Assembly (NCBI RefSeq): GCF_014349155.1
Contig: NZ_JACSIT010000034.1
Span: 1-64,000, forward strand
DNA from: Neolewinella lacunae
Lineage (GTDB): Bacteria; Bacteroidota; Bacteroidia; Chitinophagales; Saprospiraceae
Reading direction: 5' to 3'
Length of the DNA: 64,000 nucleotides
The position numbers were made by a program, and so were the translations under genes. How positions within the stretch are numbered: the stretch's first letter is position 1; each line of letters starts with the position of its first letter. Of the stretch, positions 4,815-63,413 are shown piece after piece. Below the pieces are notes generated by a model. The model saw nothing but the letters and a program-made list of their open reading frames with translations. It made no database searches and had not been told where the DNA came from.

Positions 4815-5253
4815 TGTTGTATAGAATGACTTGGTTAATTATTCAATGTTGGTTCGCGAACTCCCCTCCTTCCGGGGGGATTCCCCTTCGGAAGGGCGGG
4901 TCGGACGTCCCTGGCTCCCCCCTTCGGGGGGTTGGGGGGGGATGCCTCACCCTGCACCTGCGGCCGCGCCCATCCTTAAAAAACGGCAGTGGCCGGACAA
5001 AAAGGAAGCGCACGGCACCCATTGGGCCCGCGAGAGACAGACAAAACAGCCTTGGCAAGGAGGGGAGGGATGGGGCACGGGAAGCTCCGCACCAGGCAAC
5101 ACCAACGCTGGCGCTGCTGCATTTCTTTACTCCCGCCGGTGGTCCGCTTTGCGACCGGCGGCAGCCACACGTTTGCGGCCTGGTCTTTTTTAGTCTTGTT
5201 TCGTCGCAAAGATACGAAAGGATTGCGAGATTTATTGCTCGGCCGCGTGGGGC
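4815..5253. other. Intergenic region upstream of pnp
   Basis: About 440 bases without a supported gene. It holds C-run/G-run inverted blocks (4868-4898 and 4915-4940) and one exact copy of the dispersed 18-bp repeat at 4954-4971. Open frames here are short, overlap on both strands and resemble nothing. Confidence 0.5.
4915..4971 (+). repeat. Composite dispersed repeat: C/G-run hairpin plus 18-bp NotI box
   Basis: CTCCCCCCTTCGGGGGG forms a hairpin with a TTCG-type turn, then a G-run, then an exact GCACCTGCGGCCGCGCCC at 4954-4971. The same arrangement recurs at 30307-30351, 49151-49195 and 63370-63413, and inverted at 6295-6374. Confidence 0.8.
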
Positions 5254-5721
5254 TTACAAGAGCTTACGCAGGGCCAGCATAGTGCCCAGGTGCATCGCTT
5301 CGTGCATATTGTTGAAGGTCAGCGCCTCGTCGATGTTGTGCAGGGTCACACCAAAGCTGGTGGTGTACACCTTGAAGTTGGAAAAATCCAGGCTTTGCAG
5401 GTCTTCTTCCAGCCGATCGACGCGGTGGAGGAGACTCTCGCCAATCAGGCCATAATCGCTCTCCGGCTCCTGCCCGTCGGGGCGGCTGCCCTTGCGGTAG
5501 CGCGCCACCAGGCCCGGGTCGGAGGGCAGCGGCAGCCCCGCCAGGCCGTAGGTGAGCAGGTCCAGCGTCACCATCACGTGGCCCGCGTTCCACAGCAGGT
5601 TGTTGCTTAAACCGGCCGGAATGGAGTTGAGGTGGTCGTAATCGTAACTGTTGTAAATGCCCAGGATGTTGTTCCGGGTCGCGCGCAGCATCGCCAGCGT
5701 CATTTGTCTTTGCTCATTCAT
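5254..5721 (-). CDS. DinB-superfamily protein
   Basis: A 155-residue four-helix-bundle-type protein. Conserved features are the NLLWNAGHV segment in the first third and HEAMHLG near the C-terminus. These supply the metal-binding histidines of DinB/YfiT-like proteins, many of which are thiol-dependent transferases or have unknown roles. The ATG at 5721 lies 5 nt from a TACCTTAG box (minus strand 5734-5727), so the mRNA may be nearly leaderless. The gene stands alone; its substrate cannot be told from the sequence. Confidence 0.8.
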   Translation of the reverse strand: MNEQRQMTLAMLRATRNNILGIYNSYDYDHLNSIPAGLSNNLLWNAGHVMVTLDLLTYGLAGLPLPSDPGLVARYRKGSRPDGQEPESDYGLIGESLLHRVDRLEEDLQSLDFSNFKVYTTSFGVTLHNIDEALTFNNMHEAMHLGTMLALRKLL

Positions 5722-5726
5722 GGGGG

Positions 5727-5734
5727 CTAAGGTA
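5727..5734 (-). promoter_or_regulatory. -7 box abutting the DinB-like gene
   Basis: TACCTTAG, close to the Bacteroidota -7 consensus TAnnTTTG, ends 5 nt before the ATG. No clear -33 TTG was found. Confidence 0.4.
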
Positions 5735-5738
5735 ATGA

Positions 5739-6158
5739 GCGAATGCGTGAATGGGTGAATGCGTGAATGAGCGAATGCGTGAATGAGCGAATGAGTGAAT
5801 GGCTACCGCACGAGGCAGGCTACCGCATTGCTGCCCGATGAGGCGGATAGCTAACGCTACCTCATTATGACTTACTTTAATATGCTTTTCCTTCCATGTT
5901 GATACGGGTTTTCGGAATACACTAAAGTCTGGTTGAGGGTGTCCCCACCCGAATGTACAGGTTTCGGGTGTCTCTCCCCTCAGCCGAGAATTTTCGGGAG
6001 GGGATACCCACATCCGGGACTTTTGCTTCGCAGTATTTCATGCTCCGGGAAAGGGGTTAACTCTGCCCTACTGTTTCACCGCCTGCCTCGCCTGCCTCTC
6101 CTATCTCGCCTATCGCGTGCGGCAGCTCATTCACTCATTCACCCATTCACGCATTAGC
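5739..6158. mobile_element. MITE-like element with 8-bp tandem units in inverted ends
   Basis: 5739-5802 is eight tandem 8-bp units of the form G(C/T)GAATG(A/C/G). 6127-6158 holds four units of the complementary form TCATTCAC. The similarity extends inward: a GCTACCGCACGAGGC-like arm after the first block is mirrored by CGTGCGGCAGC before the second. The ends are therefore imperfect inverted repeats about 80-100 bp long around a 200-bp core. No transposase is encoded; the one open frame across it (5714-6013, minus) translates the repeats and looks non-coding. The mobile nature is inferred from structure alone. Confidence 0.4.
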
Positions 6159-6178
6159 TACGCTGCTGCCTACGGCGG

Positions 6179-7069
6179 TCACTCATTAGCAAAGCGAAAC
6201 CAAGGCACCACCTCCCGCCGCCCCGCATTCAACTCAGGCAGGCGCAAAAGCGACCGTTGCAGGGGCAGGCTGCTGCCGGTGGTAAAAAAGTGATGGGCGC
6301 GGCCGCAGGTGCTCCCCCCCGGCCCCCCGAAGGGAGGAGTTAAGACATCCCCCCGACCCCCAAAGGGGGAGAGCAAGGGAAGGCCGAGCCCCCGCTCCAC
6401 CAGCAAGCGCTGTACCTGCCGGGCCGCAGCGGGCGAGGGGTCAATCACCCGCACCCCGGGCCCACACACGGCCTGGATGTCTTCCAGCACCATCGGGTAA
6501 TGCGTACAGCCCAACACCAGGGTATCGATGCCCGCCGCCAACATGGGCGCGAGGATGCTTTCTAACTTGTCCCGCAACAGTAAACTGCCCGGCGCTTCCC
6601 GCTCAATAAGGGGCACCAGCCCCAGGCAAGGATCTTCCAGCACCGGTCGCTCCGGCAGGTAACGTGCCCGCAGTGCGTGGTAGCGCGGGCTGGCCAGCGT
6701 GGCGGCGGTGGCCAAAACCCCCACCCGCTCGCCCGTACTGGCCGGCTTCACGGCGGGCTCCAGGCCCACGAATGGCACCTCCGGGAAGCCTTCCCGCAGG
6801 GCGTCGATGGCAATGCTCGTTGCCGTATTACAGGCCACCACGATGAGCTTCGCCCCCGCCGCCAGCAGGAAGCGGGTAATCTCCTGACTGTAAGCGAGGA
6901 TATTTTCCGCAGGCTGTGGCCCGTAGGGCGCCCGCGCATTGTCGGCCACGTAGAGCATCGACTCCGCCGGCAATAGCCCAGAAACAGCATTGGCGACCGA
7001 GAGGCCGCCAATGCCGGAGTCGAAGACTCCGATGGTTCCGGAAAAATAGTTGCGGGGAATGGGCTGCAT
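6179..7069 (-). CDS. murI: Glutamate racemase
   Basis: Makes D-glutamate for peptidoglycan by racemising L-glutamate in the cytoplasm. Family marks are GVFDSGIGGL at the N-terminus and the two catalytic cysteines in ACNTAT (Cys80) and GCTHYP (Cys188). The ATG at 7069 is preferred over a GTG at 7072. The C-terminal part is unusual: residues about 230-259 (SPFGGRGDVLTPPFGG, then PGGSTCGRAH) are encoded by the composite dispersed repeat at 6295-6374, read in frame. The normal ending HFFTTGSS resumes directly afterwards. The insertion lies beyond both catalytic cysteines, so the enzyme is probably active (inference). Confidence 0.95.
   Translation of the reverse strand: MQPIPRNYFSGTIGVFDSGIGGLSVANAVSGLLPAESMLYVADNARAPYGPQPAENILAYSQEITRFLLAAGAKLIVVACNTATSIAIDALREGFPEVPFVGLEPAVKPASTGERVGVLATAATLASPRYHALRARYLPERPVLEDPCLGLVPLIEREAPGSLLLRDKLESILAPMLAAGIDTLVLGCTHYPMVLEDIQAVCGPGVRVIDPSPAAARQVQRLLVERGLGLPLLSPFGGRGDVLTPPFGGPGGSTCGRAHHFFTTGSSLPLQRSLLRLPELNAGRREVVPWFRFANE
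6295..6374 (-). repeat. Composite dispersed repeat inside murI
   Basis: An exact inverse copy of the 18-bp box (GGGCGCGGCCGCAGGTGC, 6295-6312) is followed by two C-run/G-run blocks (6313-6334 and 6348-6374). It lies wholly within the murI reading frame and adds about 27-30 residues without breaking it. Confidence 0.85.
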
Positions 7070-7156
7070 CACCGAAAAGAAGGAGGTTTCGGGTTCGGCA
7101 AGTCACGCCTTCCCAGCGGGGTTTCCCCCGGCCGGGCGCAACCAGCGCAGGGCGGT

Positions 7157-7663
7157 TTAGAGGCCGAGCTTGGCTTTTACGTCGGAACTGACGTCGGCAG
7201 ATTCTTCACCGTAGAGCAGTACCTGCTGGTCGAAGATGAACAGGAAGCCTTTTTCCTTAGCGACGGCCGCGATGGCCTCGTTGACGGATTTGTAGATGGG
7301 CTCGAGGAGTTCGGCCCGCTTATCCTGGAGGTCTTTTACCATCTGCTGCTCGAAGTCGCCAATTTCTTTTTGGCGGGCTTCCAGCTTAGCGGCTTCTTCC
7401 TGCTGCTGCTTGGGGGCCAGGGTGCCTTCCTGTACTTTCTGCTGGAGGGCCAGGTAGTCGGCCTCGAAGGTCTGGACCATCGCCTGGCCCCGCTTCTGAA
7501 GCTGCTTCTGGAGGCCTTCCAGGTTAGACTCTGCCGCCTTCATCTCGGGCAGCTCGGAGAGGATCTCGGCGGAGTTGACGTAGCCGAACTTCTGGGCCGA
7601 AGCCGTAGCAGCGGCGGCGAAAACCAGGACGGCTACCAGTGCGATTTGAGTGAGCTTTTTCAT
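7157..7663 (-). CDS. OmpH/Skp-family periplasmic chaperone
   Basis: A 168-residue protein of the OmpH/Skp family, which holds unfolded outer-membrane proteins in the periplasm. The ATG at 7663 is chosen because a signal peptide follows (MKKLTQIALVAVLVFAAAA, cleavage after ASAQ); the longer frame from 7717 adds an unlikely leader. The mature part starts KFGYVNSAEIL, typical of the family, and has a long Gln/Lys/Glu-rich coiled coil (about 45-130) before the small C-terminal strand region. It is the downstream member of an OmpH pair with the 7781-8299 gene. A TACCTTTG box lies about 45 nt upstream. Confidence 0.9.
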   Translation of the reverse strand: MKKLTQIALVAVLVFAAAATASAQKFGYVNSAEILSELPEMKAAESNLEGLQKQLQKRGQAMVQTFEADYLALQQKVQEGTLAPKQQQEEAAKLEARQKEIGDFEQQMVKDLQDKRAELLEPIYKSVNEAIAAVAKEKGFLFIFDQQVLLYGEESADVSSDVKAKLGL

Positions 7664-7705
7664 TGTTTGCGTTGGTTGAGGAGTAGTTGTCTTAAATACG
7701 GGGCG

Positions 7706-7713
7706 CAAAGGTA
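7706..7713 (-). promoter_or_regulatory. -7 box of first ompH gene
   Basis: TACCTTTG on the minus strand matches TAnnTTTG and lies about 43 nt before the ATG at 7663. Confidence 0.5.
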
Positions 7714-8299: not shown

Positions 8300-8321
8300 G
8301 ACGTGGTTCTTTTTTAGGGTC

Positions 8322-14449: not shown

Positions 14450-14467
14450 GGGCGCGGCCGCAGGTGC
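14450..14467 (-). repeat. Dispersed 18-bp NotI box
   Basis: An exact inverse copy (GGGCGCGGCCGCAGGTGC) in the 81-nt gap between the two transketolase subunit genes. No C/G-run hairpin is next to it. Confidence 0.85.
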
Positions 14468-17442: not shown

Positions 17443-17532
17443 TAGTTCAGTAGTTCATAGTTCATAGTTCATTGCATTGACTAGTGAACTAACGACTAGT
17501 GAACTAACGACTACTGAATTAGTGAACTAACG
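17443..17532. repeat. TAGTTCA/TGAACTA short repeat cluster
   Basis: About 90 bases of low complexity. TAGTTCA occurs four times at 17443-17470, then its complement TGAACTA occurs three times at about 17484-17528 within AGTGAACTAACG units. The two halves are inverted and could fold back. The cluster runs into the 3' end of the GT39 gene and supplies its last codons. Confidence 0.6.
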
Positions 17533-19165
17533 CCTCCCCAAGCCCCGTCCCCATGCCATCGCGCAGGGGTTCTTCCAGGGGGATGGGTCCGGCGGGTGGG
17601 TTGGGGAGCGTGCCCAGGGGGTAGTAGGTGCGCAGGTGCCGGAGGTAGATGCTGTCCTGGGGCAGCACCTCCACGCCGGGATACTGGAGGGGTGAGATGA
17701 TGTACAAGGTCTGGGGAGCAAAGTCTTGCCACTGCCGGGGAATGACGCGGCCCCGGGCCATGCTCAGGTAGTAGCCAGTGGCGGGTTCGATGAGGGTGTA
17801 AGCAAAAATGGCGACCGAATCCTGGGGGTGCGCGCGCATGGCGGCGGTGGCCGTTTCCCGCACTGCCAGGGCCCGTTCGCTGCTGGCCGCGCGGGTGGGC
17901 AAGACGAAGAAATTGAACCCAATCCGCAACAAGAGCAGGAAAATGGCGAAGAGCAGGAGCAATTGACTTTCCTTGCGCCACGCTGCGACGCACACCGCAC
18001 CTGCGGCCGCGCCCACCGTCAAACTCTTGACCCAGGCCAGCGGTACCCCTTGCGTAGCCTCCAGAAGGGGAACGAAGGGCATCACCACCGCGCAGAGCGT
18101 CATCAGGCCCAGCAGCAGATAGCGCAAGGCCCGGTACGTGCGCGTACGGCGCGCCTGATGGCCCACGTGCAGGTGCAAAAGGCTGCCAAACAGGAGCGGA
18201 AAGAGCATCAAAAGGTAGCGGGGGTACACGTTGGGCGAAAGCCAGTACACGGGTAGATTGGCCAGAAACACCACCAGGCAAAAGGCCGCAAAATCATTTT
18301 TCCTGAGCCGCCGCCAGCTACCCCGCTGGAAGAGATAGACCAGCAGAAGGGTCCAGGGCAGAAAATGGTAGCTCATCTCGAAGGGAAAAGCCAGCAGGTG
18401 CTGCACCAGGTCACCCACGCCGTGGGCGACGGCCGTCCGCTTCCCACTTTCCAAAAAAAGCCGTTCGAAGACCTTCGGGAGATCAACGTAGTAGCTGTAC
18501 TGCCAGTAGTAAAGCCCCAGCACGGCCAGGCAACCCAGGCCGCTCAGCAGGTGGGCGGGCCGCAGGAGTTGCTTCCACGCCCGCGTCCAGGCCAGCAGCG
18601 CCAGCAGCGTAATGCCCTGGAAGACGAAAGCGGGTAAGCCCTTGAGCAGGAAGCCAACCGCCGTCAGGGCGTAACTCCAGGCAAAAGCCCTGGTCCACTC
18701 CCCCCGCCGGCCGTAGGTGTACAGCAGCATCACCTGGGCGTACACCACGAAGCTGAAAGTGACGTCGATGAGGGCCAACATGCTGTCCCAAAACAACATG
18801 CGCCCGCAGGTGATGACCGTCAGGGCGTGCACGGCGGCCAGGTACTGCGAAAAATGCTGCCGGCTGAAGTGGTAGGCAGTGGCCGCAAAAGCCACCAGCG
18901 CCAGCGTCGTAGGCAGGCGTGCAGCCCACTCACTCGCCCCACCGTGGAGGTAGAAACTCAGGGCCAGCACCCAGTTCCAGAGCGGGGGCTTGTTCAGGTA
19001 AGCGTCGGCGTGCAGGGTAGGAAAAATAAAGTTGCCACTCCAGAGCATTTCCTGTGCGACCAGAGAACGGATGGCCTCATCATCGATGAAGACCACCGCC
19101 CCGAGGTGAATCAGCAGGGCGGCGGGCAGCAGGAGCAGCGCAAGGAGAAAGAGTTTCTGGCGCAC
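17519..19165 (-). CDS. ArnT/PMT-like membrane glycosyltransferase (GT39 type)
   Basis: 548 residues with about a dozen membrane helices. The first periplasmic loop holds the acidic pair expected of the GT-C fold (FIDDEAIRSLVAQEM), followed by NKPPLWNW, typical of ArnT-like enzymes that transfer a sugar from undecaprenyl phosphate to lipid A or protein. The start is a GTG at 19165 and overlaps the stop of the upstream gene (TAGTG), suggesting translational coupling. An exact copy of the 18-bp dispersed repeat (17997-18014) is read in frame as GAAAGA within a hydrophobic stretch. The GT2 enzyme at 16403-17407 is a plausible donor-making partner. Confidence 0.88.
   Translation of the reverse strand: MRQKLFLLALLLLPAALLIHLGAVVFIDDEAIRSLVAQEMLWSGNFIFPTLHADAYLNKPPLWNWVLALSFYLHGGASEWAARLPTTLALVAFAATAYHFSRQHFSQYLAAVHALTVITCGRMLFWDSMLALIDVTFSFVVYAQVMLLYTYGRRGEWTRAFAWSYALTAVGFLLKGLPAFVFQGITLLALLAWTRAWKQLLRPAHLLSGLGCLAVLGLYYWQYSYYVDLPKVFERLFLESGKRTAVAHGVGDLVQHLLAFPFEMSYHFLPWTLLLVYLFQRGSWRRLRKNDFAAFCLVVFLANLPVYWLSPNVYPRYLLMLFPLLFGSLLHLHVGHQARRTRTYRALRYLLLGLMTLCAVVMPFVPLLEATQGVPLAWVKSLTVGAAAGAVCVAAWRKESQLLLLFAIFLLLLRIGFNFFVLPTRAASSERALAVRETATAAMRAHPQDSVAIFAYTLIEPATGYYLSMARGRVIPRQWQDFAPQTLYIISPLQYPGVEVLPQDSIYLRHLRTYYPLGTLPNPPAGPIPLEEPLRDGMGTGLGEALVH
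17997..18014 (+). repeat. Dispersed 18-bp NotI box inside the GT39 gene
   Basis: An exact GCACCTGCGGCCGCGCCC, read on the minus strand as Gly-Ala-Ala-Ala-Gly-Ala in a membrane helix of the glycosyltransferase. The frame is not broken. Confidence 0.85.
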
Positions 19166-21894: not shown

Positions 21895-24600
21895 TTAGCG
21901 CGTTTCGATGTTGAAGGTGACGGCGGGAAAGACGGTGCCCAAAACAGCCAGCTGGTTGGCCACGTTGGTTTGGTCGGGGGCCTGGGTGTAAAAGACGGAA
22001 AAGGCGTTCCTGCGGCCGTAGACGTTGTAGAGGGAGATCGTCCAACTGGTCTGGAAGTTTTTCGTTTTGTTGTAGCCTTTGCCCAGGGTGTAGGCCAGGT
22101 CGAGGCGGTGGTAGTCGGGGATGCGCACGGCGTTGCGGTCGCTGTACACCGGAACGGTCAGGCCGTTTTCCACGCGGTAATTCCCGACGGGTGCGGTTAC
22201 GGGCCGGCCGGTGCGGTAGGTAAAGTTCGCCGTCAGGGTGTTCCGCTGGTTGGGGTTCCAGTTGATGGTGGTCACGAAATTGTGGGGTTTATCGAAGTTG
22301 CTGTTGTAGTAGTTGCCGTTGTTGATGCCCGCAATCTTGCGCTGGGTGGAAGAAAAAGTGTAGCTGACCAGGCCATTGAGCACCCCCACCTTGCGCTTGG
22401 CGCTCAGCTCCAGGCCGTAGGCACGCCCTTCGCCGATCAGGATTTCCGTTTCCAGGGTGGGGTTGACGATCACCTCGGCAAAGTCGCGGTAATCCCAGAG
22501 CTGGTCGATCCGGCGGCCGTAGACTTCAGCGCCCAGCTCAATGTTGTTGTCTTCCTGGTTGAGGAAGTAGCCCAGGGAAAAGTTGTGGGAGAGGAAAGGC
22601 GGAATGTAGGTCGTACTCAGCTGGTACTGCGAACTGGGCGTAGGGGAATCGCTGACGAAAATCTGGTTGAGGAACTGGGCAGTGCGGCTGTAGCCCCCCC
22701 GGATGGAAGCGTTGGCGTTGAGGCGGAAGCGCAAGCTCACGCGCGGTTGCAGGCTGTTGTAGGCCGCCATGACCTCACCCGCACCGTAGCGGATGGAGTC
22801 GGTCAGCCGCCCCCGCCGCGGAACACCGTCTTCGTACTGGAATTCCGTGCCCGGCCCCAGAAAGCGGTAATTGGTAAAGCGCAGCCCGCCGGAAATGCTG
22901 AAGCGGTTCGAGACCGTGTAATCCGCACTGGCAAAAAGGCTGGCTTCCATGCCCTGCTCTTCTTCCAGGGCCTGCCCGGGCGTCAGGGATTCGGGGGTGG
23001 CCGGACTGCGATCACCGGGGTTGACCCAGAACTGGTTGATGTCCAGCCCGCCCTGCAATTGCAGGTCTTTGGAGGCTTCGTAAAAGAAAGTGGGTTTCAC
23101 CGTCAGGTAGCGAATGCCGTTGTTGACCACTTCGGCCGTCAGGCTGCGCAGGTCGCTCTGGCTGCTCTGGTAATCGTTGTACACCAGGCTGAAATCGGCG
23201 TAAAACTGGTCGCTAAAGATCTGCTTCCAGGTGGCCTGGCCCATAACCGTGCCGTAGTCGAAGGCAAAAGTATTGTTGTAATTGAACTCATCCTGCGAGC
23301 CGTAGCCCTGGAGGATGAGGGTGGATTTATCGCCAATGCGCTGCGTCAGCCGCAGGTTGCCATCGAAGAAAAACGTTGCGCTGTTCTTCACTTCTTCTAC
23401 GCTAGCCAGTTTGATGGCCCAGTTGGCGTAGCTGGAACGCGCGCCGAAAATGAAGCTGCTTTGGTCTTTCACGATGGGCCCTTCCACCATAATCCGGCCA
23501 GTTACCGGCCCGATGCCCGCTTTGACGCGGTGGCGCTCGAAATTGCCATCGCGCATTTGCACGTCGAGCACCGAGGCCAGCCGCCCCCCGAAACGGGCGG
23601 GAATGTTGGCCTTGTACAGGTCTACGCTCTTGATCAGGTCGGCGTTGTAGGTACTGAAAAAGCCCAGGGCGTGGCTGGAGTTGATGAGCGCGCCGTTGTC
23701 CATCAACAGCAGGTTCTGGTCAATTTCACCGCCCCGGACGTTGAACCCCGAAGCGCCTTCGCCAATGGAGCTGACGCCGGGGTTGAGCAGCAGGGCCTTC
23801 ACCACGTCGGTTTCCCCCATGAAGGTGGGGAGCTTTTCGAGCTGGGCCATATCCAGGCGTTGTACGCCGGCCTGTACGCGGCCGACGTTGGCATCGACGG
23901 CCTGCTCGGTAACCACAATTTCGGTCAGGTTGGTAGCGCTGGCACCGAGCGCAATATCGAAGGTTCCGCTGCCCTGGACGCGTACCGGACGCAGGTTAGT
24001 GCCGAAGCCGACGTAGCTGATGACCAGGGTATAGTCTCCCGGGCGGAGCCGGAGTTCGTAATTGCCCTCCGCGTCCGTCACCGCCGCCGTGGTGCTGTTC
24101 TCCACCTGAATGGTGGCCCCGATGAAGGTTTCGCCGCTCTGCTGGTCGGTCACTTGGCCTTTGACGGTGGCCAGCCCGTCGGTTTCCAGCGTTTCCAGCG
24201 CGCCAATGTAGGCGGGGCCTTCCTGCCCTTCGCGGGTGGGCGGCGCGGCGGTGCGGGCGGCCACGGCGGCGTAGTAGGCCGCGTCAAACTCGGTACCGAT
24301 GGTGATGGCCGGGCCAACCACGAAGATGCGCTCGCGGTAGTCGATAAAATCCAGCAAGGTGCCCTTCAGGATGGCGTCGAGGGCCTCGCGGACGGTCGCC
24401 TGCCGTAAGTCCAGGTCAATAGCCCCCTTCGGCACCTGGTCTTCCTGGAAAAAGATCGTCACGGGCAGGCCGTCGTTGATCGTCCGGAGCGCCTCGGTCC
24501 GGGTAATGGCCGTGCGTTTCAGGTCCAGGGTCAGGGCTTCCTGGGCGCTGACGCAGGTGCAGAGCAAGGTGACAAGAGCAAGGCAGAGAAAGTGTTTCAT
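21895..24600 (-). CDS. TonB-dependent receptor with STN and carboxypeptidase-regulatory domains
   Basis: A 901-residue outer-membrane receptor. The ATG at 24600 begins a signal peptide (MKHFLCLALVTLLCTCVSAQ). An STN domain follows (about 30-105, ending FIDYRERIFVVG), then a carboxypeptidase-regulatory beta domain (VKGQVTDQQSGETFIGATI, about 155-235), the plug (NVRGGEIDQNLLLMDN, LYKANIPARFGGRLASVLDV) and a large beta-barrel ending in VTFNIETR. STN domains normally talk to an anti-sigma factor, but no FecR or ECF sigma gene is adjacent. It heads a block with the DUF4249 and MG2-like genes. The substrate is unknown. Confidence 0.93.
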   Translation of the reverse strand: MKHFLCLALVTLLCTCVSAQEALTLDLKRTAITRTEALRTINDGLPVTIFFQEDQVPKGAIDLDLRQATVREALDAILKGTLLDFIDYRERIFVVGPAITIGTEFDAAYYAAVAARTAAPPTREGQEGPAYIGALETLETDGLATVKGQVTDQQSGETFIGATIQVENSTTAAVTDAEGNYELRLRPGDYTLVISYVGFGTNLRPVRVQGSGTFDIALGASATNLTEIVVTEQAVDANVGRVQAGVQRLDMAQLEKLPTFMGETDVVKALLLNPGVSSIGEGASGFNVRGGEIDQNLLLMDNGALINSSHALGFFSTYNADLIKSVDLYKANIPARFGGRLASVLDVQMRDGNFERHRVKAGIGPVTGRIMVEGPIVKDQSSFIFGARSSYANWAIKLASVEEVKNSATFFFDGNLRLTQRIGDKSTLILQGYGSQDEFNYNNTFAFDYGTVMGQATWKQIFSDQFYADFSLVYNDYQSSQSDLRSLTAEVVNNGIRYLTVKPTFFYEASKDLQLQGGLDINQFWVNPGDRSPATPESLTPGQALEEEQGMEASLFASADYTVSNRFSISGGLRFTNYRFLGPGTEFQYEDGVPRRGRLTDSIRYGAGEVMAAYNSLQPRVSLRFRLNANASIRGGYSRTAQFLNQIFVSDSPTPSSQYQLSTTYIPPFLSHNFSLGYFLNQEDNNIELGAEVYGRRIDQLWDYRDFAEVIVNPTLETEILIGEGRAYGLELSAKRKVGVLNGLVSYTFSSTQRKIAGINNGNYYNSNFDKPHNFVTTINWNPNQRNTLTANFTYRTGRPVTAPVGNYRVENGLTVPVYSDRNAVRIPDYHRLDLAYTLGKGYNKTKNFQTSWTISLYNVYGRRNAFSVFYTQAPDQTNVANQLAVLGTVFPAVTFNIETR

Positions 24601-24844: not shown

Positions 24845-24862
24845 GCACCTGCGGCCGCGCCC
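24845..24862 (+). repeat. Dispersed 18-bp NotI box
   Basis: An exact GCACCTGCGGCCGCGCCC between the divergent TonB-receptor and S41-protease genes. Confidence 0.85.
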
Positions 24863-30306: not shown

Positions 30307-30351
30307 CTCCCCCCTTCGGGGGGTTGGGGGGGAGCACCTGCGGCCGCGCCC
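30307..30351 (+). repeat. Composite dispersed repeat: C/G-run hairpin plus 18-bp NotI box
   Basis: CTCCCCCCTTCGGGGGG with a further G-run, then an exact GCACCTGCGGCCGCGCCC at 30334-30351, between recF and the DUF721 gene. It is almost identical to the copies at 4915, 49151 and 63370. Confidence 0.85.
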
Positions 30352-30367
30352 AAAAAATCCAGGGGCC

Positions 30368-31471
30368 TTATCCCGTCACGCGTCCGTCCGCTACCAAAAA
30401 GCGCCGCCAATCGAGCGCTGGGTTGCCCTCAATGAGTTGTGTGACGCGCTCGGGATCGGTGTCGGAGATAAAAACCTGCCCGTAGGCGGAGCCCAGCACG
30501 AGGGTGAGGAGTTGGCGTACGCGGTCTTGGTCGAGCTTATCGAAAATATCGTCGAGCAGCAAAATGGGCGTGCGTTGGGTATCGCGTTCCAGCAGGCGGT
30601 ACTGGGCGAGTTTGAGGGACAGGACGAAGGATTTCAACTGGCCCTGGCTGGCTACCCGGCGCAGGGGGTGGCCGTCTTGGCTGAAGACCAGATCATCGCG
30701 GTGGATGCCCGCCGTAGTGCGTTGCAATACGCGGTCTTTTTCGCGGTTGGCCTCCATCAGGGCGGCCCAGGATTGCTCTTCCAGTTGGCTTTTGTAGCGG
30801 AGTTCGACCTGCTCTTTTTCGCCGCTGATGGCCGCGTAGGCTTCCAGCAGCAGTTCCGTGAAGGGGCCGCTGAAGCTTTGGCGGCGTTGGTGCAGGTAGG
30901 TGGCGGCGGGCTCCAGTTGTTGGTCATAGACGGAGAGCAGGCCCGAGGTGTCGCTGCGGCCGGCGAGTTCCTTAAGCAGGGCATTGCGGTTGGCCAGCAG
31001 GCGATTGTAGTGGATGAGGTGGTTGAGGTAGGCGGGGTCGGTTTGGCTCAGGCTGTTATCGATCAGGCGGCGCCGCACCTCGCTGCCCTCCAGAACCAGG
31101 GCACTGTCGTCGGGCACGATGATGACTACGGGGTAGCGGCCAACGTGGTCGGCCAGGCGATCGTAAGGGGTGCCGTTGCGTTCGATGACCTTGCGCTGCC
31201 GTTTGCGGAGTTTGACCACCGTCTTATCGCGCTCGCTGGCGTCCAGCAGGAAAATGCCCTCCAGACGGCTGCCGTCTTCGCCGTGGCGGATGGCGTACTG
31301 ATCGGGGTTGCCCGTGTGGCTTTTCCCCATACAGAGGTAGTAAACGGCCTCCAGCAGGTTCGTTTTCCCCGCGCCATTGGGGCCCACAAAACAGTTCAGC
31401 CGCGGGCTCAGCTCCAGTTGCTGGCTGCCGTAATTTTTGAACTGGGTAAGCGTCAGGGAAGAAAGATACAC
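30368..31471 (-). CDS. recF: DNA replication and repair protein RecF
   Basis: A 367-residue ABC-type ATPase that helps load RecA at gapped DNA. Walker A is GPNGAGKT, the signature region contains ASQGQLKSF, and Walker B is ILLLDDIFDKLD. The start chosen is a GTG at 31471 (VYLSSLTLTQFKNY), where family similarity begins. The frame is open to a TTG at 31531, but those extra residues (HLRQRP) are translated from a near-copy of the 18-bp dispersed repeat (31512-31529) and are unlikely to be real. A DUF721 gene follows. Confidence 0.95.
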   Translation of the reverse strand: MYLSSLTLTQFKNYGSQQLELSPRLNCFVGPNGAGKTNLLEAVYYLCMGKSHTGNPDQYAIRHGEDGSRLEGIFLLDASERDKTVVKLRKRQRKVIERNGTPYDRLADHVGRYPVVIIVPDDSALVLEGSEVRRRLIDNSLSQTDPAYLNHLIHYNRLLANRNALLKELAGRSDTSGLLSVYDQQLEPAATYLHQRRQSFSGPFTELLLEAYAAISGEKEQVELRYKSQLEEQSWAALMEANREKDRVLQRTTAGIHRDDLVFSQDGHPLRRVASQGQLKSFVLSLKLAQYRLLERDTQRTPILLLDDIFDKLDQDRVRQLLTLVLGSAYGQVFISDTDPERVTQLIEGNPALDWRRFLVADGRVTG

Positions 31472-31511
31472 GGGCGTTGGATGCGGAAATGGATAATTAC
31501 CGGGCAAGTTT

Positions 31512-31529
31512 GGGCGCTGCCGCAGGTGC
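31512..31529 (-). repeat. Dispersed 18-bp box, one mismatch
   Basis: GGGCGCTGCCGCAGGTGC, one change from the consensus that destroys the NotI core, lies 40 nt upstream of the chosen recF start. Confidence 0.7.
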
Positions 31530-37910: not shown

Positions 37911-37928
37911 GCACCTGCGGCCGCGCCC
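37911..37928 (+). repeat. Dispersed 18-bp NotI box
   Basis: An exact GCACCTGCGGCCGCGCCC between the response regulator stop and the TonB receptor promoter. Confidence 0.85.
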
Positions 37929-38911: not shown

Positions 38912-39640
38912 TTAGCCTGGTGGCAACCACTCGTTCATCCGTTGCATCACCACTTCCATTCCCGCGCTTCCGCCCATTTCCAGCAGGTGGATATTTCGGC
39001 GCCGGCGCAGTTCATGACTGATGGTTGGTCGGGGGTCGATGTAGATGATGGGCGCGTCCGCAGGTGCATAGTCCACCAGGCCAGCGGCGGGATAAACCTG
39101 CATGGACGTCCCGATGATGAGCAACAGATCGGCCGCCGCCACCGTCTGAGCAGCGCGGGGGATTTCGGGCACCTCTTCACCGAACCAGACGATGTGGGGC
39201 CGGAGCTGGTTGCCCTTGTCGTCGGTATCGCCCAGGTTTAAGTCGCCCGTCCAGGGCAGGATGGGCCAGTCGGCATTGACCGGGCGTACTTTTTTAAGCT
39301 CGCCGTGGAGGTGGATGATGTTGGTGCTTCCCGCTCTTTCGTGCAGGTCATCAATGTTTTGGGTGACGATGTGGACGTCGTAATCTTTTTCCAGCGCGGC
39401 GAGGAGTTGGTGGCCCCGGTTGGGCTGGACGGTGAGGAGTTGGGCGCGGCGCAGGTTATAGAAATTGAGGACGAGGGAGGGATCGCGGTAAAAACCCTGG
39501 GGGCTGGCCACGTCCTCCACGCGGTGGTTTTCCCAGAGGCCATCGCTGGCCCGGAAGGTGGGGATGCCCGATTCGGCGGAGACCCCAGCACCGGTGAGGA
39601 CCACAATTTTTTTCCTTTCGCGCAGCGGTTTAGCGGACAT
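38912..39640 (-). CDS. SIR2-family NAD-dependent protein deacylase
   Basis: 242 residues. NAD-binding and catalytic blocks are GAGVSAESGIPTFR, TQNIDDLHERAGS and the catalytic His in HLHGEL. FYNLRRAQ supplies the Tyr-x-x-Arg pair used by SIRT5/CobB-type enzymes to bind succinyl or malonyl lysine. The usual four zinc cysteines are missing: the segment after the catalytic His (KKVRPVNADWPILPW) has no Cys. The enzyme would remove acyl groups from lysines in the cytoplasm. It follows the enoyl-CoA hydratase gene with an 8-nt gap, so the two probably form an operon. Confidence 0.92.
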   Translation of the reverse strand: MSAKPLRERKKIVVLTGAGVSAESGIPTFRASDGLWENHRVEDVASPQGFYRDPSLVLNFYNLRRAQLLTVQPNRGHQLLAALEKDYDVHIVTQNIDDLHERAGSTNIIHLHGELKKVRPVNADWPILPWTGDLNLGDTDDKGNQLRPHIVWFGEEVPEIPRAAQTVAAADLLLIIGTSMQVYPAAGLVDYAPADAPIIYIDPRPTISHELRRRRNIHLLEMGGSAGMEVVMQRMNEWLPPG

Positions 39641-43538: not shown

Positions 43539-43556
43539 GCACCTGCGGCCGCGCCC
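43539..43556 (+). repeat. Dispersed 18-bp NotI box
   Basis: An exact GCACCTGCGGCCGCGCCC in the gap between the convergent bestrophin and aat genes. Confidence 0.85.
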
Positions 43557-47079: not shown

Positions 47080-47097
47080 GGGCGCGGCCGCAGGTGC
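47080..47097 (-). repeat. Dispersed 18-bp NotI box
   Basis: An exact inverse copy lies between the convergent mscS and beta-barrel genes. Flanking CCGGG and CCCGG could form a closing stem around it. Confidence 0.85.
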
Positions 47098-49150: not shown

Positions 49151-49195
49151 CTCCCCCCTTCGGGGGGCCGGGGGGGAGTACCTGCGGCCGCGCCC
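49151..49195 (+). repeat. Composite dispersed repeat: C/G-run hairpin plus 18-bp box
   Basis: CTCCCCCCTTCGGGGGG and a G-run are followed by GTACCTGCGGCCGCGCCC (49178-49195), one mismatch from the consensus, in the divergent gap between dapD and the CHAT gene. Confidence 0.85.
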
Positions 49196-54786: not shown

Positions 54787-54804
54787 GCACCTGCGGCCGC
54801 GCCC
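54787..54804 (+). repeat. Dispersed 18-bp NotI box
   Basis: An exact GCACCTGCGGCCGCGCCC, 19 nt past the stop codon of the double-CHAT gene. Confidence 0.85.
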
Positions 54805-56643: not shown

Positions 56644-57402
56644 CGCCTGCCAGGCGGAATACATCGTTGCCAGTACTTCCCCATCGCGTAGTAAGGCGTG
56701 GCGAAAGTGCGTGCCCCCATCCGTAGCGGGTTCGCTTTGGGCGCTCAGCGCATCGCCGTAGCGGGCTTCCTGCTGGAAGGAAATATCAACTTCCGTCGGG
56801 AGGTGTGTCTCCAAAAACGCCAGCCCGAGGGGTTCAATCATCAATTCGGGGAAGACGGGATTGGTAAGGTGGCCGTTGAAGTCCAATTGATAAAAAGCTA
56901 CATGGCTGCTGCGTTCAGCGTTGGGGCGGGCGGGTGGTGGCAATTTACCGATGGGTCTTTTGAGGTGCGCGGTCGCAGGTGCCAGGTCCGCTGCCAGCGC
57001 AGCAATGTGCGGGGGGATGGCCTTGATGCGTCGGGTATGTACGTCCATCAAAAGCCATTCCGTAGTGGCGGAGATGCAGGTTTTGCCCTCCGCGTCCAGC
57101 AGGTGGAAGTCGCGGTAAGTAAGCAAGCCCCGTTCAAAGCCCGTGGGGGCGGTAAGCACGCGCACCCTTTCTCCGATGCCGGGCCAGCGCAGGCAGTGCA
57201 AAGACTGCCGTCGTAACACCCAGGTGCAGCCGTGCGAGAGCAGCAACTCCGGGCTGGAGATGCCCAGGCGGACCGTATTGCGCATCGCCGCTTCTTGCAA
57301 TAGCCGGATCAGGTGGGGCAGGGTCAACCGCTGGTGTGGGCCCACCGCCGAGGCGGCAATCTGAAAAGAAAGATCGTCGTGGAGGGGAGAAGCGCTGAGC
57401 AA
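56638..57402 (-). CDS. Acyl-ACP thioesterase family protein
   Basis: 254 residues with two hot-dog halves. The first has LIRLLQEAAMRNTVRLG and WVLRRQSLHCLRWPGIGERVRVLT. The second holds VAFYQLDFNGHLTNPVFPELMIEPL, where Asp-x-Asn-x-His-x-x-Asn matches the catalytic signature of FatA/FatB-like enzymes. It would release fatty acids from acyl carrier protein. The start is a TTG at 57402; no in-frame ATG precedes the fold. The gene overlaps the convergent metallopeptidase gene by 6 nt. A two-mismatch copy of the 18-bp box at 56965-56982 is probably coincidental coding sequence. Confidence 0.88.
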   Translation of the reverse strand: MLSASPLHDDLSFQIAASAVGPHQRLTLPHLIRLLQEAAMRNTVRLGISSPELLLSHGCTWVLRRQSLHCLRWPGIGERVRVLTAPTGFERGLLTYRDFHLLDAEGKTCISATTEWLLMDVHTRRIKAIPPHIAALAADLAPATAHLKRPIGKLPPPARPNAERSSHVAFYQLDFNGHLTNPVFPELMIEPLGLAFLETHLPTEVDISFQQEARYGDALSAQSEPATDGGTHFRHALLRDGEVLATMYSAWQAL

Positions 57403-60204: not shown

Positions 60205-61233
60205 ATGTCAGATTACAGGATCATCATTGCGGGACAACTCGAATTCGGCTCCGAGCGCGTCTTCCGGCAGGTTTTTGACCAGTACGTTCACCGGATGGAG
60301 AACTACTACAAAGGAGATATTCTGCTGAAGCCGGAAGATTTCTTCAAGGAGCAGGACCTTATCCTCGACGTACCCCGCACCGTTGTCAATGGCAGCGAAC
60401 GACACTGGCTCAACACCCTTAACCTCCTCGAAAGGGTGGTTTCTTTCAGCATTGCCGGCAGCCTGAATCTTTGGCGTTTGGATGCGGGGACCATTCTGGA
60501 TCACCACCTTTTGGAACCGCAGAGCGACCGGACCACAGTGCAACTCTTCAACCAGGGCCGGCAGTTGGTCAATCAGGAGGACAAGGAAGAAGAGGCCCTG
60601 GCGATGATGACTACGGTAGTAGACCGCTTCGCGCGCCACGCCCAGGCCTACGAACGCCGCGGCTTCGTTAATTTCCGTCTCGGCAACCTCAAAGACGCGC
60701 TCTACGACTACGACAAAAGCCTCAACATCTACCCCGCCATGCCCGAAAGCCACTACGGCCGTGGGCTCACCTACTCCCGCCTGGAGCAGTGGGAACAGGC
60801 TGCCGCAGACTTTGAAGCAGTAACCAACAACAGCATCCCCCACCAGGCCATTTACTGGATGGCCCAGGTGGCGCTGGGGGACACCTACCTCCGCCTCGGC
60901 CGCCCGGCCGACGCCCAACGCCTCTTCAACCTCTTCTCCAAGCGCAAGCAACGGATTGGCAGCCTCGACCGCTACGACCGGCGGGTAAACTACGACCTGG
61001 GCAAACTCCTGGCCAAAACGGGTCGGTACCCAGATGCCCACGCCGCCTTCGAACTGGCCCTGAAAGCAGTGCCCGACGAGAAAGCCCCCTCCGAAGCCAA
61101 AATCCACTACCACTACGGCCTTTCCCTTAAGGCCGCCGGACAGGTCGATAAATCCGTCGAACACCTTACCCTGGCTGCAAAGGAACTTCCCGAAGCCAAC
61201 GAGGCGCTGCAGCAAGGCCGGATCGGGGCCTGA
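60205..61233 (+). CDS. TPR-repeat protein
   Basis: 342 residues from the ATG at 60205 (MSDYRIIIAGQLEF), with no signal peptide, so probably cytoplasmic. The first 120 residues are an unfamiliar mixed domain. Residues about 125-330 are tetratricopeptide repeats (AQAYERRGFVNFRLGNLKDALYDYDKSLNIYP, ESHYGRGLTYSRLEQWEQAAADFEA, and further units near the end). TPRs mediate protein contacts; the partner is unknown. An upstream in-frame start at 60145 is less likely. The PorE-like gene follows after 126 nt. Confidence 0.8.
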   Translation: MSDYRIIIAGQLEFGSERVFRQVFDQYVHRMENYYKGDILLKPEDFFKEQDLILDVPRTVVNGSERHWLNTLNLLERVVSFSIAGSLNLWRLDAGTILDHHLLEPQSDRTTVQLFNQGRQLVNQEDKEEEALAMMTTVVDRFARHAQAYERRGFVNFRLGNLKDALYDYDKSLNIYPAMPESHYGRGLTYSRLEQWEQAAADFEAVTNNSIPHQAIYWMAQVALGDTYLRLGRPADAQRLFNLFSKRKQRIGSLDRYDRRVNYDLGKLLAKTGRYPDAHAAFELALKAVPDEKAPSEAKIHYHYGLSLKAAGQVDKSVEHLTLAAKELPEANEALQQGRIGA

Positions 61234-61359
61234 GGCCACCGTTGCCAGAAAAGCAATTACGATAATTGAAGCGGACGCCCCAGCCCGGCGGCAGTTCCGT
61301 AGGGCCAGCCGGGTAACATCCCACCCTTTCCCTGCGTTATGAGCGGAAAGTAATTTCCC

Positions 61360-63306
61360 TTGACTTTCTCTCGCTGCTTACTGCTTTGCTTTACTGTTCT
61401 CTGCCTGTTCTCGTCCTGTGCGACGGCCCAAACGGCCATGAAGAAAAAGGACCAGGAAAAACTGGTGGCGGCCCGTTCTGCCCTGGACCTCGGAAAATTT
61501 TCCGATGCCCGCAGCGTACTTTCGGGCCTGGTGGCCAAATACCCCGCCGAAAAAGACCTCTATTACCTGCGGGCCCTGGCCGCTAAAGGAAGCTATGACC
61601 TCCCGGCCGCAGTTGCCGATCTCCGGCAGGGACTGGCCCTGGACCCGAAGAAAAGCCCAACGGCCTACCGGGAATTGGGCGAAGCACTCAGCCTGCTGGA
61701 AGACTTCACCGGGGCCCGGAGCGCCTACGAGCAGTACCGCGCGGCGCTGGGGGAAAACGCCCGCCCCGAAAGAAAACAGGAAGCCGAGCGCCTGGTGAAC
61801 ACCGCCAATACGGCCGTTCAACTGGCGGCGGAGCCCGTGCCTTTCACACCCGTTCCCGTTCCGGGGGGCATCAACACGGCCGAGCACCTGGAATACTTTC
61901 CTACGTTAAGCATCGACGGGCAGCGGATGATCTTTACCCGGCGCGTCAACCGTGAGCAGGAAGACTTTTACTTCAGCGACAAGCTCCCCGACGGCACCTG
62001 GCACACCGCCGAGCCCTTGGCCGGGGCAAATACGGACTTCGACGAAGGCGCCCAAAGCATCACCGCCGACGGTAATTACCTGGTGTTTACCGCCTGCAAC
62101 CGTCCTGACGGCGCGGGCAGTTGTGATCTGCTCTACACCGAATGGCTGGGAGACCGTTGGACGCCAGCCAAGTCCCTCGGTCCCAACATCAACACGAAGT
62201 ACTACGAAGCCCAACCCAGCCTTTCGCCCGACGGGCAATTTCTCTTCTTTACCAGCAACCGACCGGGCGGCCAGGGCCAGAGCGATCTTTACGCCAGTGG
62301 TCGGTTATCCGACGGCGGGTGGTCTGTCCCCACCAACCTGGGCCCCCGCATCAACACCAGTGGCCAAGACCAGTACCCCTACTGGGCGGCCGATGGGCAA
62401 ACCCTCTTTTTTACCAGCGATGGGCACCCGGGCATGGGCGGGGAAGACCTTTTCCGAAGCGTGCTGGGCCGCGACAATGTATGGAGCCTGCCGACCAACC
62501 TCGGCTATCCCATCAACACCGCCGCAGATGAGACCAACCTCTTCATCGCCCTCAACGGCAGTACGGCCTACTTCAGCAAGCGGGAGGTGAACCCCGGCAG
62601 CGGAGTGGTGGACGTGAATATCTTTACTTTCGAGCTGCCCGCTGCGTTGCGGCCCGTGGCAGCCACCTACCTGCAAGCCTTCGTGACCGATGCCACCACG
62701 GGGATGCCGCTGGCCGCAACGGTGCGCCTGCGGCCCCTTGACGCTGCGGGGCCAGCCACCCAAAGAACCAGCAACGAGGCCGGGCAATTTCTGGCGGTTT
62801 TGCCCGCCAACCGGGATTATGCCCTGACCGTAGACCACCCGGGCTACGTCTTTTACGCCGACCGCTTCAGCCTCAGCGACGGTTTTGCGCCGGAGGAGCC
62901 CTTCCGCCTCGAAGTGCCACTGGTGCCCGTGGAAAAGGCCCTGGCCGACGGAGGGCAAGAGGCCGATGGCTCGACGGCCTTCCGCAATGTGCTTTTCGCG
63001 ACGGGCAGTGCTGCCCTGTTGCCCGTCTCTTCGGAAGAACTTGACCGCCTGGCCGAGCTGCTGCGCAAAGCTCCAGACTACCGCGTGGCCATCATCGGGC
63101 ATACGGACGACGTGGGCAGCGAAGCCGACAACCTGGCCCTGAGCCAACAGCGGGCCGCAGCGGTAAAAAGCTACCTGGTAGAACAAGGCATTGCCGACGC
63201 GCGAATCACTACCGAGGGGCTCGGGGAAAGTAGGCCGGTAGCTGACAACTCCACGGAGGAAGGGCGGGCGAAAAACCGCCGTACCACTTTCCGCCTTTTC
63301 CGGTAA
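61360..63306 (+). CDS. PorE-like OmpA-family lipoprotein (type IX secretion type)
   Basis: 648 residues. The start appears to be a TTG at 61360, since it begins a lipoprotein signal (lipobox LFSSC at 17-20) and no ATG precedes the fold. Domain order: TPR region (about 30-130), PD40/WD40-like beta-propeller (about 180-430; LSIDGQRMIFTRR, PSLSPDGQFLFFTSNRPGG, YWAADGQTLFFTSDG), carboxypeptidase-regulatory-like domain (about 440-525) and OmpA peptidoglycan-binding domain (about 535-648; VAIIGHTDDVGSEADNLALS). This is the architecture of PorE, which anchors the type IX secretion apparatus to the cell wall. Other OmpA/propeller lipoproteins share it, so the exact role is inferred. Confidence 0.88.
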   Translation: MTFSRCLLLCFTVLCLFSSCATAQTAMKKKDQEKLVAARSALDLGKFSDARSVLSGLVAKYPAEKDLYYLRALAAKGSYDLPAAVADLRQGLALDPKKSPTAYRELGEALSLLEDFTGARSAYEQYRAALGENARPERKQEAERLVNTANTAVQLAAEPVPFTPVPVPGGINTAEHLEYFPTLSIDGQRMIFTRRVNREQEDFYFSDKLPDGTWHTAEPLAGANTDFDEGAQSITADGNYLVFTACNRPDGAGSCDLLYTEWLGDRWTPAKSLGPNINTKYYEAQPSLSPDGQFLFFTSNRPGGQGQSDLYASGRLSDGGWSVPTNLGPRINTSGQDQYPYWAADGQTLFFTSDGHPGMGGEDLFRSVLGRDNVWSLPTNLGYPINTAADETNLFIALNGSTAYFSKREVNPGSGVVDVNIFTFELPAALRPVAATYLQAFVTDATTGMPLAATVRLRPLDAAGPATQRTSNEAGQFLAVLPANRDYALTVDHPGYVFYADRFSLSDGFAPEEPFRLEVPLVPVEKALADGGQEADGSTAFRNVLFATGSAALLPVSSEELDRLAELLRKAPDYRVAIIGHTDDVGSEADNLALSQQRAAAVKSYLVEQGIADARITTEGLGESRPVADNSTEEGRAKNRRTTFRLFR

Positions 63307-63340
63307 TGGATCAGCCTTGGGAGGACGGGCATTGCTCCTC

Positions 63341-63413
63341 CCCCTTTGGGGGCTGGGGGGCCAACCTTCTCCCCCCTTCGGGGGGCCGGGGGGGAGCACC
63401 TGCGGCCGCGCCC
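63341..63413 (+). repeat. Composite dispersed repeat with two C/G-run blocks and 18-bp NotI box
   Basis: Two C-run/G-run hairpin blocks (63337-63360 and 63370-63393) precede an exact GCACCTGCGGCCGCGCCC at 63396-63413, between the PorE-like gene and the last gene. The block pair mirrors the one built into murI. Confidence 0.85.

Follow-up and report, generated by a model that had tools for sequence, protein, structure and literature searches.

An oriented 18-base motif in Neolewinella genomes, a putative polar DNA signal akin to uptake sequences

The window, that is, the whole 64,000-nucleotide stretch of Neolewinella lacunae DNA that was analysed, carries an 18-base motif on both strands, and we tentatively read this motif as the core of a genus-wide oriented recognition sequence, a putative DNA-exchange signal akin to uptake sequences (probability about 0.4). 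It behaves as a DNA-level site that has an orientation and excludes others of its own orientation over about 3-4 kb, and such spacing suggests a signal that some machine would read along the DNA in a single direction. Our confidence that the motif is a polar DNA signal is moderate, and our confidence in the mechanism is low. To our knowledge, genome-wide self-recognition words are established in only a few lineages, and a search of the open-access literature for a motif of this kind in Lewinella, Neolewinella or Bacteroidetes found none described.

Copies in the window and their position relative to genes

The sequence-only reading had described 11 exact and five one-mismatch copies, and every coordinate was reproduced, on both strands. 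Two further copies with two mismatches lie at 24543 (-) and 56965 (-), and the total at up to three mismatches is 18, as against a mean of 0.38 and a maximum of 3 in 100 dinucleotide-preserving shuffles scanned at the same threshold. Of the 11 exact copies, 9 are intergenic according to a gene caller of our own making, the exceptions at 6295 and 17997 lying in predicted ORFs. The description of the copies as mostly intergenic also holds across stretches of five genomes, where 294 of 500 copies (at up to two mismatches) are intergenic in DNA of which 80-89% is called coding. An Rfam search of the window gave no match. The features are as follows; copies at 100, 721 and 56965 come from the motif scan, and those given as intergenic or within a predicted ORF or gene come from the motif scan together with the gene calls.

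100..117 (+), core motif, 1 mismatch
721..738 (-), core motif, 1 mismatch
4954..4971 (+), core motif, exact, intergenic
6295..6312 (-), core motif, exact, within predicted ORF 6179-7069
6313..6339 (-), C/G-run hairpin-type arm immediately 5' of core copy 6295
14450..14467 (-), core motif, exact, intergenic
17997..18014 (+), core motif, exact, antisense within predicted gene 17519-19165
24543..24560 (-), core motif, 2 mismatches, coding, on our reading of the letters, for a stretch of an N terminus that resembles a signal peptide
24845..24862 (+), core motif, exact, intergenic
30307..30333 (+), C/G-run hairpin-type arm immediately 5' of core copy 30334
30334..30351 (+), core motif, exact, oriented towards gene 30368-31471 (-) from 16 nt past its stop codon
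31512..31529 (-), core motif, 1 mismatch, 40 nt ahead of the called start of gene 30368-31471 (-), facing the gene
37911..37928 (+), core motif, exact, intergenic
39050..39067 (-), core motif, 1 mismatch, in frame within the Sir2 gene (38912-39640, -)
43539..43556 (+), core motif, exact, intergenic, convergent genes on either side
47080..47097 (-), core motif, exact, intergenic, convergent genes on either side
49151..49177 (+), C/G-run hairpin-type arm immediately 5' of copy 49178
49178..49195 (+), core motif, 1 mismatch, intergenic
54787..54804 (+), core motif, exact, intergenic
56965..56982 (-), core motif, 2 mismatches
63369..63395 (+), C/G-run hairpin-type arm immediately 5' of copy 63396
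63396..63413 (+), core motif, exact, intergenic

Shared protein-coding sequence does not explain all copies: most are non-coding, and the 206 genic copies among the 500 (99 sense, 107 antisense), which keep the spacing law described below, are spread over the reading frames, with one antisense frame holding only 2 of the 206. Some copies sit in frame within conserved proteins, and several read as ..LCTCGRAQ-type signal peptides, but these are a small share of the copies and a signal-peptide function was rejected. A promoter was likewise rejected; the TTTGCACC flank of some copies resembled the Bacteroidota -7 box, but few such boxes follow the motif and the position that an A should occupy is usually T or G. 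In the N. lacunae genome a stop codon is found 20 nt or less from the CCC end of the motif in 34 cases and from the GCACC end in 2, a bias that is absent in genomes G008 and G011 (6 versus 5). Hairpins of the C/G-run type adjoin the core in 42 of 44 cases in a 777-kb sample, but copies occur both sense and antisense in genes, and the terminator reading was dropped.

Abundance, dialects and turnover of the sites

In the 5.8-Mb N. lacunae genome there are 500 forward and 519 reverse copies with at most one mismatch, 1019 in all, while the reversed pattern used as a control gave 0 and 1. The genome-wide count is thus far above random expectation, as the sequence-only reading had stated for the window. 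The motif was present in 20 of 20 other genomes of the genus, at 1 to 1135 copies each, and in 0 of 16 genomes of sister genera; among the genomes scanned it is confined to one genus. Its core, GCACCTGCGNCCGCGCCC, occurs in letter dialects that differ between species, position 10 being free and position 13 altered in one dialect. The left flank is missing in the G008/G011 clade, and G001 and G010 are poor in the core and have other abundant words, wholly different from it. Density is about one site per 4-6 kb in the five-genome stretches. Although all 14 exact matches among those listed for G019 (contigs C1 and C2) are on the plus strand, 400 kb of C1 hold 37 plus and 39 minus copies, and the longest G013 contig (>4 Mb) holds 13 and 14 exact copies; neither stretch shows strand skew, nor the orientation skew that a KOPS-type signal would have.

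The suggestion that the motif is a NotI or methylation target fared poorly. In a sample of the N. lacunae genome (at most one mismatch) 103 of 170 copies have the palindrome GCGGCCGC intact, as do 5/29, 5/49, 25/61 and 10/48 copies in four relatives, a tally that takes in 65 of 66 G002 places among the matches listed and 37 of 38 G013 places and omits single-place contigs. Because the free position 10 and the changes at position 13 in one dialect often break the palindrome, such a target is unsupported and, judged from the letters, the NotI part of the motif is incidental.

A mobile-repeat remnant had also been proposed, and alignment of the flanks speaks against it. In one species pair 125 sites were compared; 28 lacked an ortholog and 3 were rearranged, so that 31 dropped out, and of the 94 orthologous places left, 46 held an ungapped near-motif and 11 had the entire site in a gap. 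Two or fewer differences were seen at 38 of these 94 orthologous sites compared with 47 of 376 flank windows. The missing left flank in G008 and G011 argues the same way, and the distribution of RAYT genes does not follow that of the motif: Y1_Tnp gave no match in G018, which has 926 copies, and is present in G021 and G022, which have none. REP/RAYT repeats and MITEs are, like the motif, short interspersed intergenic repeats, some of them in inverted pairs or beside hairpins; the motif differs from them in that it has no full-length element constant between species and no link to RAYTs, occurs in frame in conserved proteins and changes by substitution. Judging from this species pair, point change under constraint or drive, and not transposition, would be the main way in which sites come and go.

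A regulatory site, a terminator-like element or a miniature mobile repeat would fit the stop-codon bias, the flanking hairpins and the divergent partner that lies within 300 bp of 28 of 168 copies, but the spacing and centre of these divergent pairs vary, the bias and the -7 boxes fail as described, and the genic copies in both senses obey the same spacing. Together with the substitution pattern, the behaviour of the RAYTs and the lack of an Rfam match in the window, this makes an explanation of that kind very improbable.

Strand-wise spacing

Across five genomes (2.29 Mb in all, with 500 sites, those with more than two mismatches excluded), pairs of sites in the same orientation less than 3 kb apart number 38 against 157 expected, whereas pairs in opposite orientation number 162 against 165 expected. 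The same-orientation shortage is present in genic-genic, genic-intergenic and intergenic pairs, and a model of orientation toward gene edges fails to account for it. Sites are also evenly spread, with variance-to-mean ratios of 0.51-0.76 in 5-kb windows, G011 alone being not significantly even (P = 0.055). Between neighbouring sites 2.5-6 kb apart, 76 pairs are convergent and 49 divergent. The word that G010 has in place of the core shows the shortage as well, with 3 same-orientation pairs against 10.7 expected (<4 kb); the G001 word, with 17 sites, shows no clear shortage (same orientation 3 against 4.1, opposite 1 against 4.4, <4 kb). The idea of a binding site for a segregation or nucleoid protein, or of a recombination signal, is compatible with these results, sharpened to an oriented site that excludes others of its own orientation.

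It could be argued that the exclusion is a side effect, close direct repeats being purged because genes are lost when such repeats recombine or slip, whereas inverted pairs do no harm; the function of the motif would then be open-ended. The missing pairs are indeed direct repeats, and the shortage is strongest between perfect copies (3 same-orientation and 32 opposite pairs <3 kb) and weak between two-mismatch copies (8 and 12). However, the copies in G019 are diverse and yet give one of the strongest shortages, 2 pairs against 21 expected (<3 kb). The same genome retains close direct repeats of other families, albeit as tandem arrays that may delete harmlessly, and, going by the usual deletion rates of such short repeats, selection seems too weak at 2-4 kb. 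We consider a side effect improbable.

Phage contigs, candidate machinery and known systems

Two tailed-phage contigs carry 8 and 7 motif sites. Only sites with at most one mismatch were counted, because the reversed pattern at up to two mismatches matched G060 twice and G062 once. The viral scan returned 83 stretches, most with a single match and many on contigs unlike the host; scans with other dialects returned 1, 4, 35 and 1 stretches with one match each, which is the background for the multi-site phage contigs. ComEC was found in 21 of 21 genomes of the genus and in 12 of 15 others, and is not diagnostic because it is nearly universal in the order. Searches of the genus for PF00437 (type IV pilus/type II secretion ATPase) gave only partial matches of about 19-25 bits, and RecC was not found in any of 36 genomes.

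A Chi-like polar signal would act on a DNA-end-processing helicase-nuclease, altered at a correctly oriented site when running from a break or a phage end. Since such an enzyme would read its site in one direction, a separate spaced series would be needed for each way along the DNA, and a phage would profit from carrying sites. Strand-wise exclusion with little cross-talk between orientations, sites both in and between genes and the multi-site phage contigs agree with this, as does a candidate enzyme in G005, a UvrD-helicase plus PD-(D/E)XK protein; in G000 the helicase-nuclease candidate lies around C134:89507-90268, and PDDEXK_1 proteins occur in 36 of 36 genomes searched, but with or without the motif. 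Chi sites are likewise oriented over the genome, and phages may carry them, but known Chi words have 5-8 bases and the motif is longer. The pattern of Chi in E. coli is moreover the opposite, clustered in the same orientation (65 pairs <2 kb against 32.8 expected), over-dispersed (variance/mean 1.62) and strand-skewed (80:36), whereas the motif is without skew in its own genome, in G019 and in G013. We regard a Chi-like signal as unlikely.

A polar chromosome-organising site, that is, a barrier or loading site for a translocase or loop-extruding complex with one orientation per direction of travel, would account for the even, strand-wise spacing, the orientation toward gene edges in N. lacunae and the excess of convergent over divergent neighbours. 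Against it stand the sites in the phage contigs, the replacement of the motif by other words within the genus and the lack, along contigs, of the skew expected of terminus-directed signals, and we think it quite unlikely. HIP1 of cyanobacteria is also a highly iterated short word typical of its lineage; it is a palindrome, whereas the motif is asymmetric and its GCGGCCGC part optional.

The closest likeness is to the uptake sequences, DUS in Neisseriaceae and USS in Pasteurellaceae. In the parts of the literature consulted (PMC7965970, PMC5217627, PMC1939737, PMC7811141, PMC2397512, PMC7371117), these share with the motif a genome-wide excess, dialects, fairly even spacing without chromosome strand bias, intergenic enrichment beside many genic copies, evolution by point change and some close inverted pairs. 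The same parts report a density of roughly 0.4-1.1 kb per site, a DUS spacing that matches conversion-tract size, Neisseriaceae genomic islands poor in primary DUS, and uptake in H. influenzae that is independent of USS orientation. Because of this last report, the strand-wise rule is not predicted by known uptake sequences, and in those parts strand-wise exclusion is not reported for DUS/USS. The motif also differs in its 18-base core, its lower density, its place in Bacteroidota in which no type IV pilus motors were found and its sites in two phage contigs.

The near-equal excess on the two strands, the restriction to a genus in which copies range from 1 to 1135, the dialects, the replacement words of G001 and G010 (the latter with its own shortage), the substitution-type change and the exclusion beyond the gene-edge model, in genes and between them, speak for an uptake-like signal, as do ComEC throughout the genus and the evenness, strand balance and permissive places that DUS and USS show in the literature consulted. 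Speaking against it are the partial ATPase matches, which leave room for a different uptake route, the undiagnostic ComEC, the low density, the phage sites where the consulted sources describe islands poor in primary DUS, the G001 word and the P value of G011. If the motif serves in natural transformation, a receptor would bind it and set the direction or strand of entry of the adjacent few kilobases, presumably via ComEC. A site would render superfluous any second one that faces the same way less than about 3-4 kb off and would affect opposite sites little. Uptake and recombination would favour alleles that create a missing site, and the drift of the motif between species would reflect receptor dialects.

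Possible, though doubtful, is that the motif represents a genome-wide mark of a new kind. Any DNA that replicates in these cells, chromosomal or phage, would then show the polar word at intervals of about 7-14 kb per strand, to be read by a novel directional Bacteroidota machine; within one genus the word could drift to dialects or give way to an unrelated one while the strand-wise spacing stays.

A self-recognition word in the Bacteroidota, apparently without type IV pili, with species dialects and phage sites, would make DNA exchange or end recognition in that phylum testable. If redundancy is the right reading of the spacing, sequence alone would reveal, through the strand-wise rule, the polarity of the reader and the distance over which it works (about 3-4 kb), and the dialects may offer a route to a co-varying reader protein.

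Copy number, anatomy and dialects

The sequence-only reading had described 11 exact and five one-mismatch copies of an asymmetric, NotI-containing 18-mer in the window, and all were recovered at their positions together with two further two-mismatch copies at 24543 and 56965; none of 100 shuffles of the window attained 18 matches. It had also proposed counts genome-wide and in relatives. In the genome that holds the window (G000; 5.8 Mb, 154 contigs), 500 forward and 519 reverse copies were found at up to one mismatch, and the 18-mer read backwards, used as a control, gave 0 and 1. With position 10 left free and one mismatch allowed, the motif was present in each of the other 20 genus genomes (1 to 1135 copies), in none of 16 genomes from other genera of the family, and as a single match each in two of 23 genomes of the order. 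A scan of named genomes gave, among the matches listed, Neolewinella agarilytica, N. persica, N. aurantiaca, Lewinella and other Bacteroidia MAGs, as well as scattered single matches in unrelated bacteria.

In 777 kb of G000 the core consensus is GCACCTGCGNCCGCGCCC, with a weaker pyrimidine arm on its left, about CCTTGCTCCTT..TCCCTTnCCCT, which in some copies is interrupted by a C/G-run hairpin, and an A-rich flank on its right. Of 44 hairpins of the CTCCCCCCTTCGGGGGGnnGGGGGGGA type in this sample, 42 adjoin the core; those in the window are:

6313-6339, C/G-run hairpin abutting the core
30307-30333, C/G-run hairpin abutting the core
49151-49177, C/G-run hairpin abutting the core
63369-63395, C/G-run hairpin abutting the core

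The same sample holds tandem arrays of short words of the TAGTTCATAG, CATTCACGCATT and GACATCnnACATC types, and arrays of the last type sometimes adjoin the core. A 133-bp tandem repeat containing CCTGCGAGTGTCCGGG is present 11 times in another genus genome (G001:C36, about 70463-71794 of the fetched stretch L247), and a dense array of the word CTTGCAAT, inverted in arrangement and with palindromic spacers, occupies about 13786-18132 of L263, from a comparison genome that has no core copies (G022:C121).

Other species keep the framework and alter its letters. In G008 and G011 the left arm is missing and C is preferred at position 13; G019 favours C at position 6, frequently has A at position 10 and may end in CGCAA; in G005 position 13 and the last base vary and the right flank is A-rich. 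Two genus genomes nearly devoid of core copies carry other abundant words, CCTGCGCTCCG, mostly TACCTGCGCTCCGCCGC, in G001 (14 in 121 kb) and TTGCTACTTTG, often CATTGCTACTTTGnnAG[TC]C, in G010 (28 in 140 kb), the latter resembling the left arm of G000.

Position relative to genes and change at orthologous sites

Among 500 copies at up to two mismatches in 2.29 Mb of five genomes (G000, G008, G011, G005 and G019), 294 are intergenic even though a home-made codon-based caller assigns 80-89% of the sequence as coding. The 206 genic copies are divided between sense (99) and antisense (107), and the antisense frame whose translation would be GRGRRC accounts for just two. In G000 a stop codon lies no more than 20 nt from the CCC end of the core 34 times and from the GCACC end twice, a bias absent from the left-arm-less clade of G008 and G011 (6 versus 5), and we read this placement as room needed for the left arm. 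The copy at 39050 lies inside a Sir2 gene, where the residues that it encodes form no insertion relative to an archaeal Sir2. A single gene (30368-31471, minus strand) stands between two inward-facing copies (30334-31529), one 16 nt past its stop and the other 40 nt ahead of its called start. Several copies, some of them exact, fall in frame close to gene starts, where they encode the ends of signal peptides (LCTCGRAQ / LCTCVSAQ type), as though signal peptides came with the repeat. Such copies occur in the 777-kb sample and, in the window, at:

24543-24560, minus strand, in-frame signal-peptide-type copy

A regulatory or mobile-repeat element is one rival reading of the motif. G008 and G011 share 81% identity over a single compared region, and for 94 of 125 sites an orthologous stretch was usable; an ungapped near-motif stood at the orthologous place in 46 of these, and the entire site fell in a gap in 11. 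Two or fewer differences were seen at 38 of the 94 sites versus 47 of 376 flank windows, with means in ungapped windows of 2.05 and 4.03. The near-motifs at orthologous places and the smaller number of differences indicate, on this alignment, that sites evolve by substitution under constraint rather than by insertion. Genic copies in both directions also join the spacing rule below, and this speaks against a function at the RNA level or as a promoter.

Spacing and proposed polarity

Copies are more even than chance, with variance/mean in 5-kb windows of 0.51 (G000), 0.57 (G008), 0.76 (G011, not significant when taken alone), 0.57 (G005) and 0.51 (G019). When pairs are separated by orientation, this evenness traces to a scarcity of close same-orientation pairs.

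Pairs of sites in the five genomes by distance (seen/expected)
0-1 kb: same orientation 5/52.9; opposite 60/53.6
1-2 kb: same orientation 12/52.8; opposite 48/56.4
2-3 kb: same orientation 21/50.9; opposite 54/55.2
3-4 kb: same orientation 36/51.8; opposite 57/54.3
4-5 kb: same orientation 66/51.6; opposite 58/53.1

Opposite pairs exceed expectation below 200 bp (25 versus 10.6) and fall short of it at 500-1000 bp (15 versus 27.0), and among adjacent sites at 2.5-6 kb convergent pairs are somewhat commoner than divergent ones (76 versus 49). The same-orientation shortage is visible separately in G000, G005, G019 and G008 with G011, and in genic-genic, genic-intergenic and intergenic pairs. A null model with fixed positions, in which gene-edge features determined the redrawn orientations, seldom attained the counts seen even when fitted to the sample itself: in each bin below 3 kb 0 to 6 of 300 simulations did so, and at 3-4 kb 8 and 9 did. 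The listed exact sites of G002 and G013, two further genus genomes (65 and 37 sites), gave one same versus nine opposite pairs below 3 kb and five versus 10 below 4 kb. G010's own word behaves alike (three same-orientation pairs below 4 kb, 10.7 expected; 29 sites), and G001's shows no clear shortage (three, 4.1 expected; 17 sites). Purging of direct repeats is a rival account of this shortage, which is strongest for best-matching pairs and weak for two-mismatch pairs.

Same-strand spacing averages 7-14 kb (CV 0.51-0.91), and the sites on each strand tend to form a separate spaced series; a chromosome-organising site is a rival reading. Two motif-free stretches were met in G000: 20 kb of C22 that includes about 9.5 kb without called genes (about 127.6-137.0 kb; one 5-kb window at 40% GC), and 17 kb of C32 (about 79.0-96.1 kb), where numerous short genes share a strand and by their sizes resemble a ribosomal-protein cluster.

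Since the two orientations nearly ignore each other and copies within each would be redundant at short range, the spacing points to something read directionally along DNA. Chi is the textbook polar site, and a Chi-like signal is among the rivals. The 116 Chi sites in a 450-kb stretch of E. coli K-12 form clusters of like orientation (65 same-orientation pairs below 2 kb, 32.8 expected), are over-dispersed (1.62) and are divided 80:36 by strand, and we reject Chi identity for the Neolewinella word on these spacing and strand statistics.

Phage contigs, candidate machinery and known systems

The core occurs in 83 stretches of IMG/VR, most with one match. Eight sites at up to one mismatch lie in viral contig G060, whose 44.6 kb include genes for terminase, head protease, primase and tail fibre, and seven lie in G061, whose 38.7 kb include genes for tape measure, endolysin and head protease; four other dialect patterns gave one match per viral stretch. 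The same phage sequence recurs around the motif in viral contigs L292, L298, L299, L304 and L305, which suggests that this phage population keeps the site.

ComEC is encoded in all 21 genus genomes and in 12 of 15 others, PDDEXK_1 proteins in 36 of 36 genomes, RecC in 0 of 36, and a UvrD-helicase/PD-(D/E)XK protein in G005; the type IV pilus/type II secretion ATPase family gave just partial matches in the genus (about 19-25 bits, a few barely above the cut-off). None of these tracks the motif.

Riemerella columbina (Flavobacteriaceae) reportedly favours its own DNA, and candidate words there were sought solely as k-mers of no more than about 10 bases. The motif has in common with DUS/USS, in the descriptions examined, its over-representation, evenness, dialects, balance between strands and permissive locations. 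The pilus route is a DUS/USS feature that the motif does not match, poverty in mobile DNA may, on a partial test, be another, and strand-wise exclusion is a feature of the motif absent from those same descriptions. The copies, their dialects, substitution, the spacing and the phage copies are observed; redundancy, a reader with polarity and a tie to DNA exchange are inferred. On these shared and unshared features we do not file the motif as a DUS, and suggest tentatively, at roughly two chances in five, that it may behave like a polar uptake or exchange signal.
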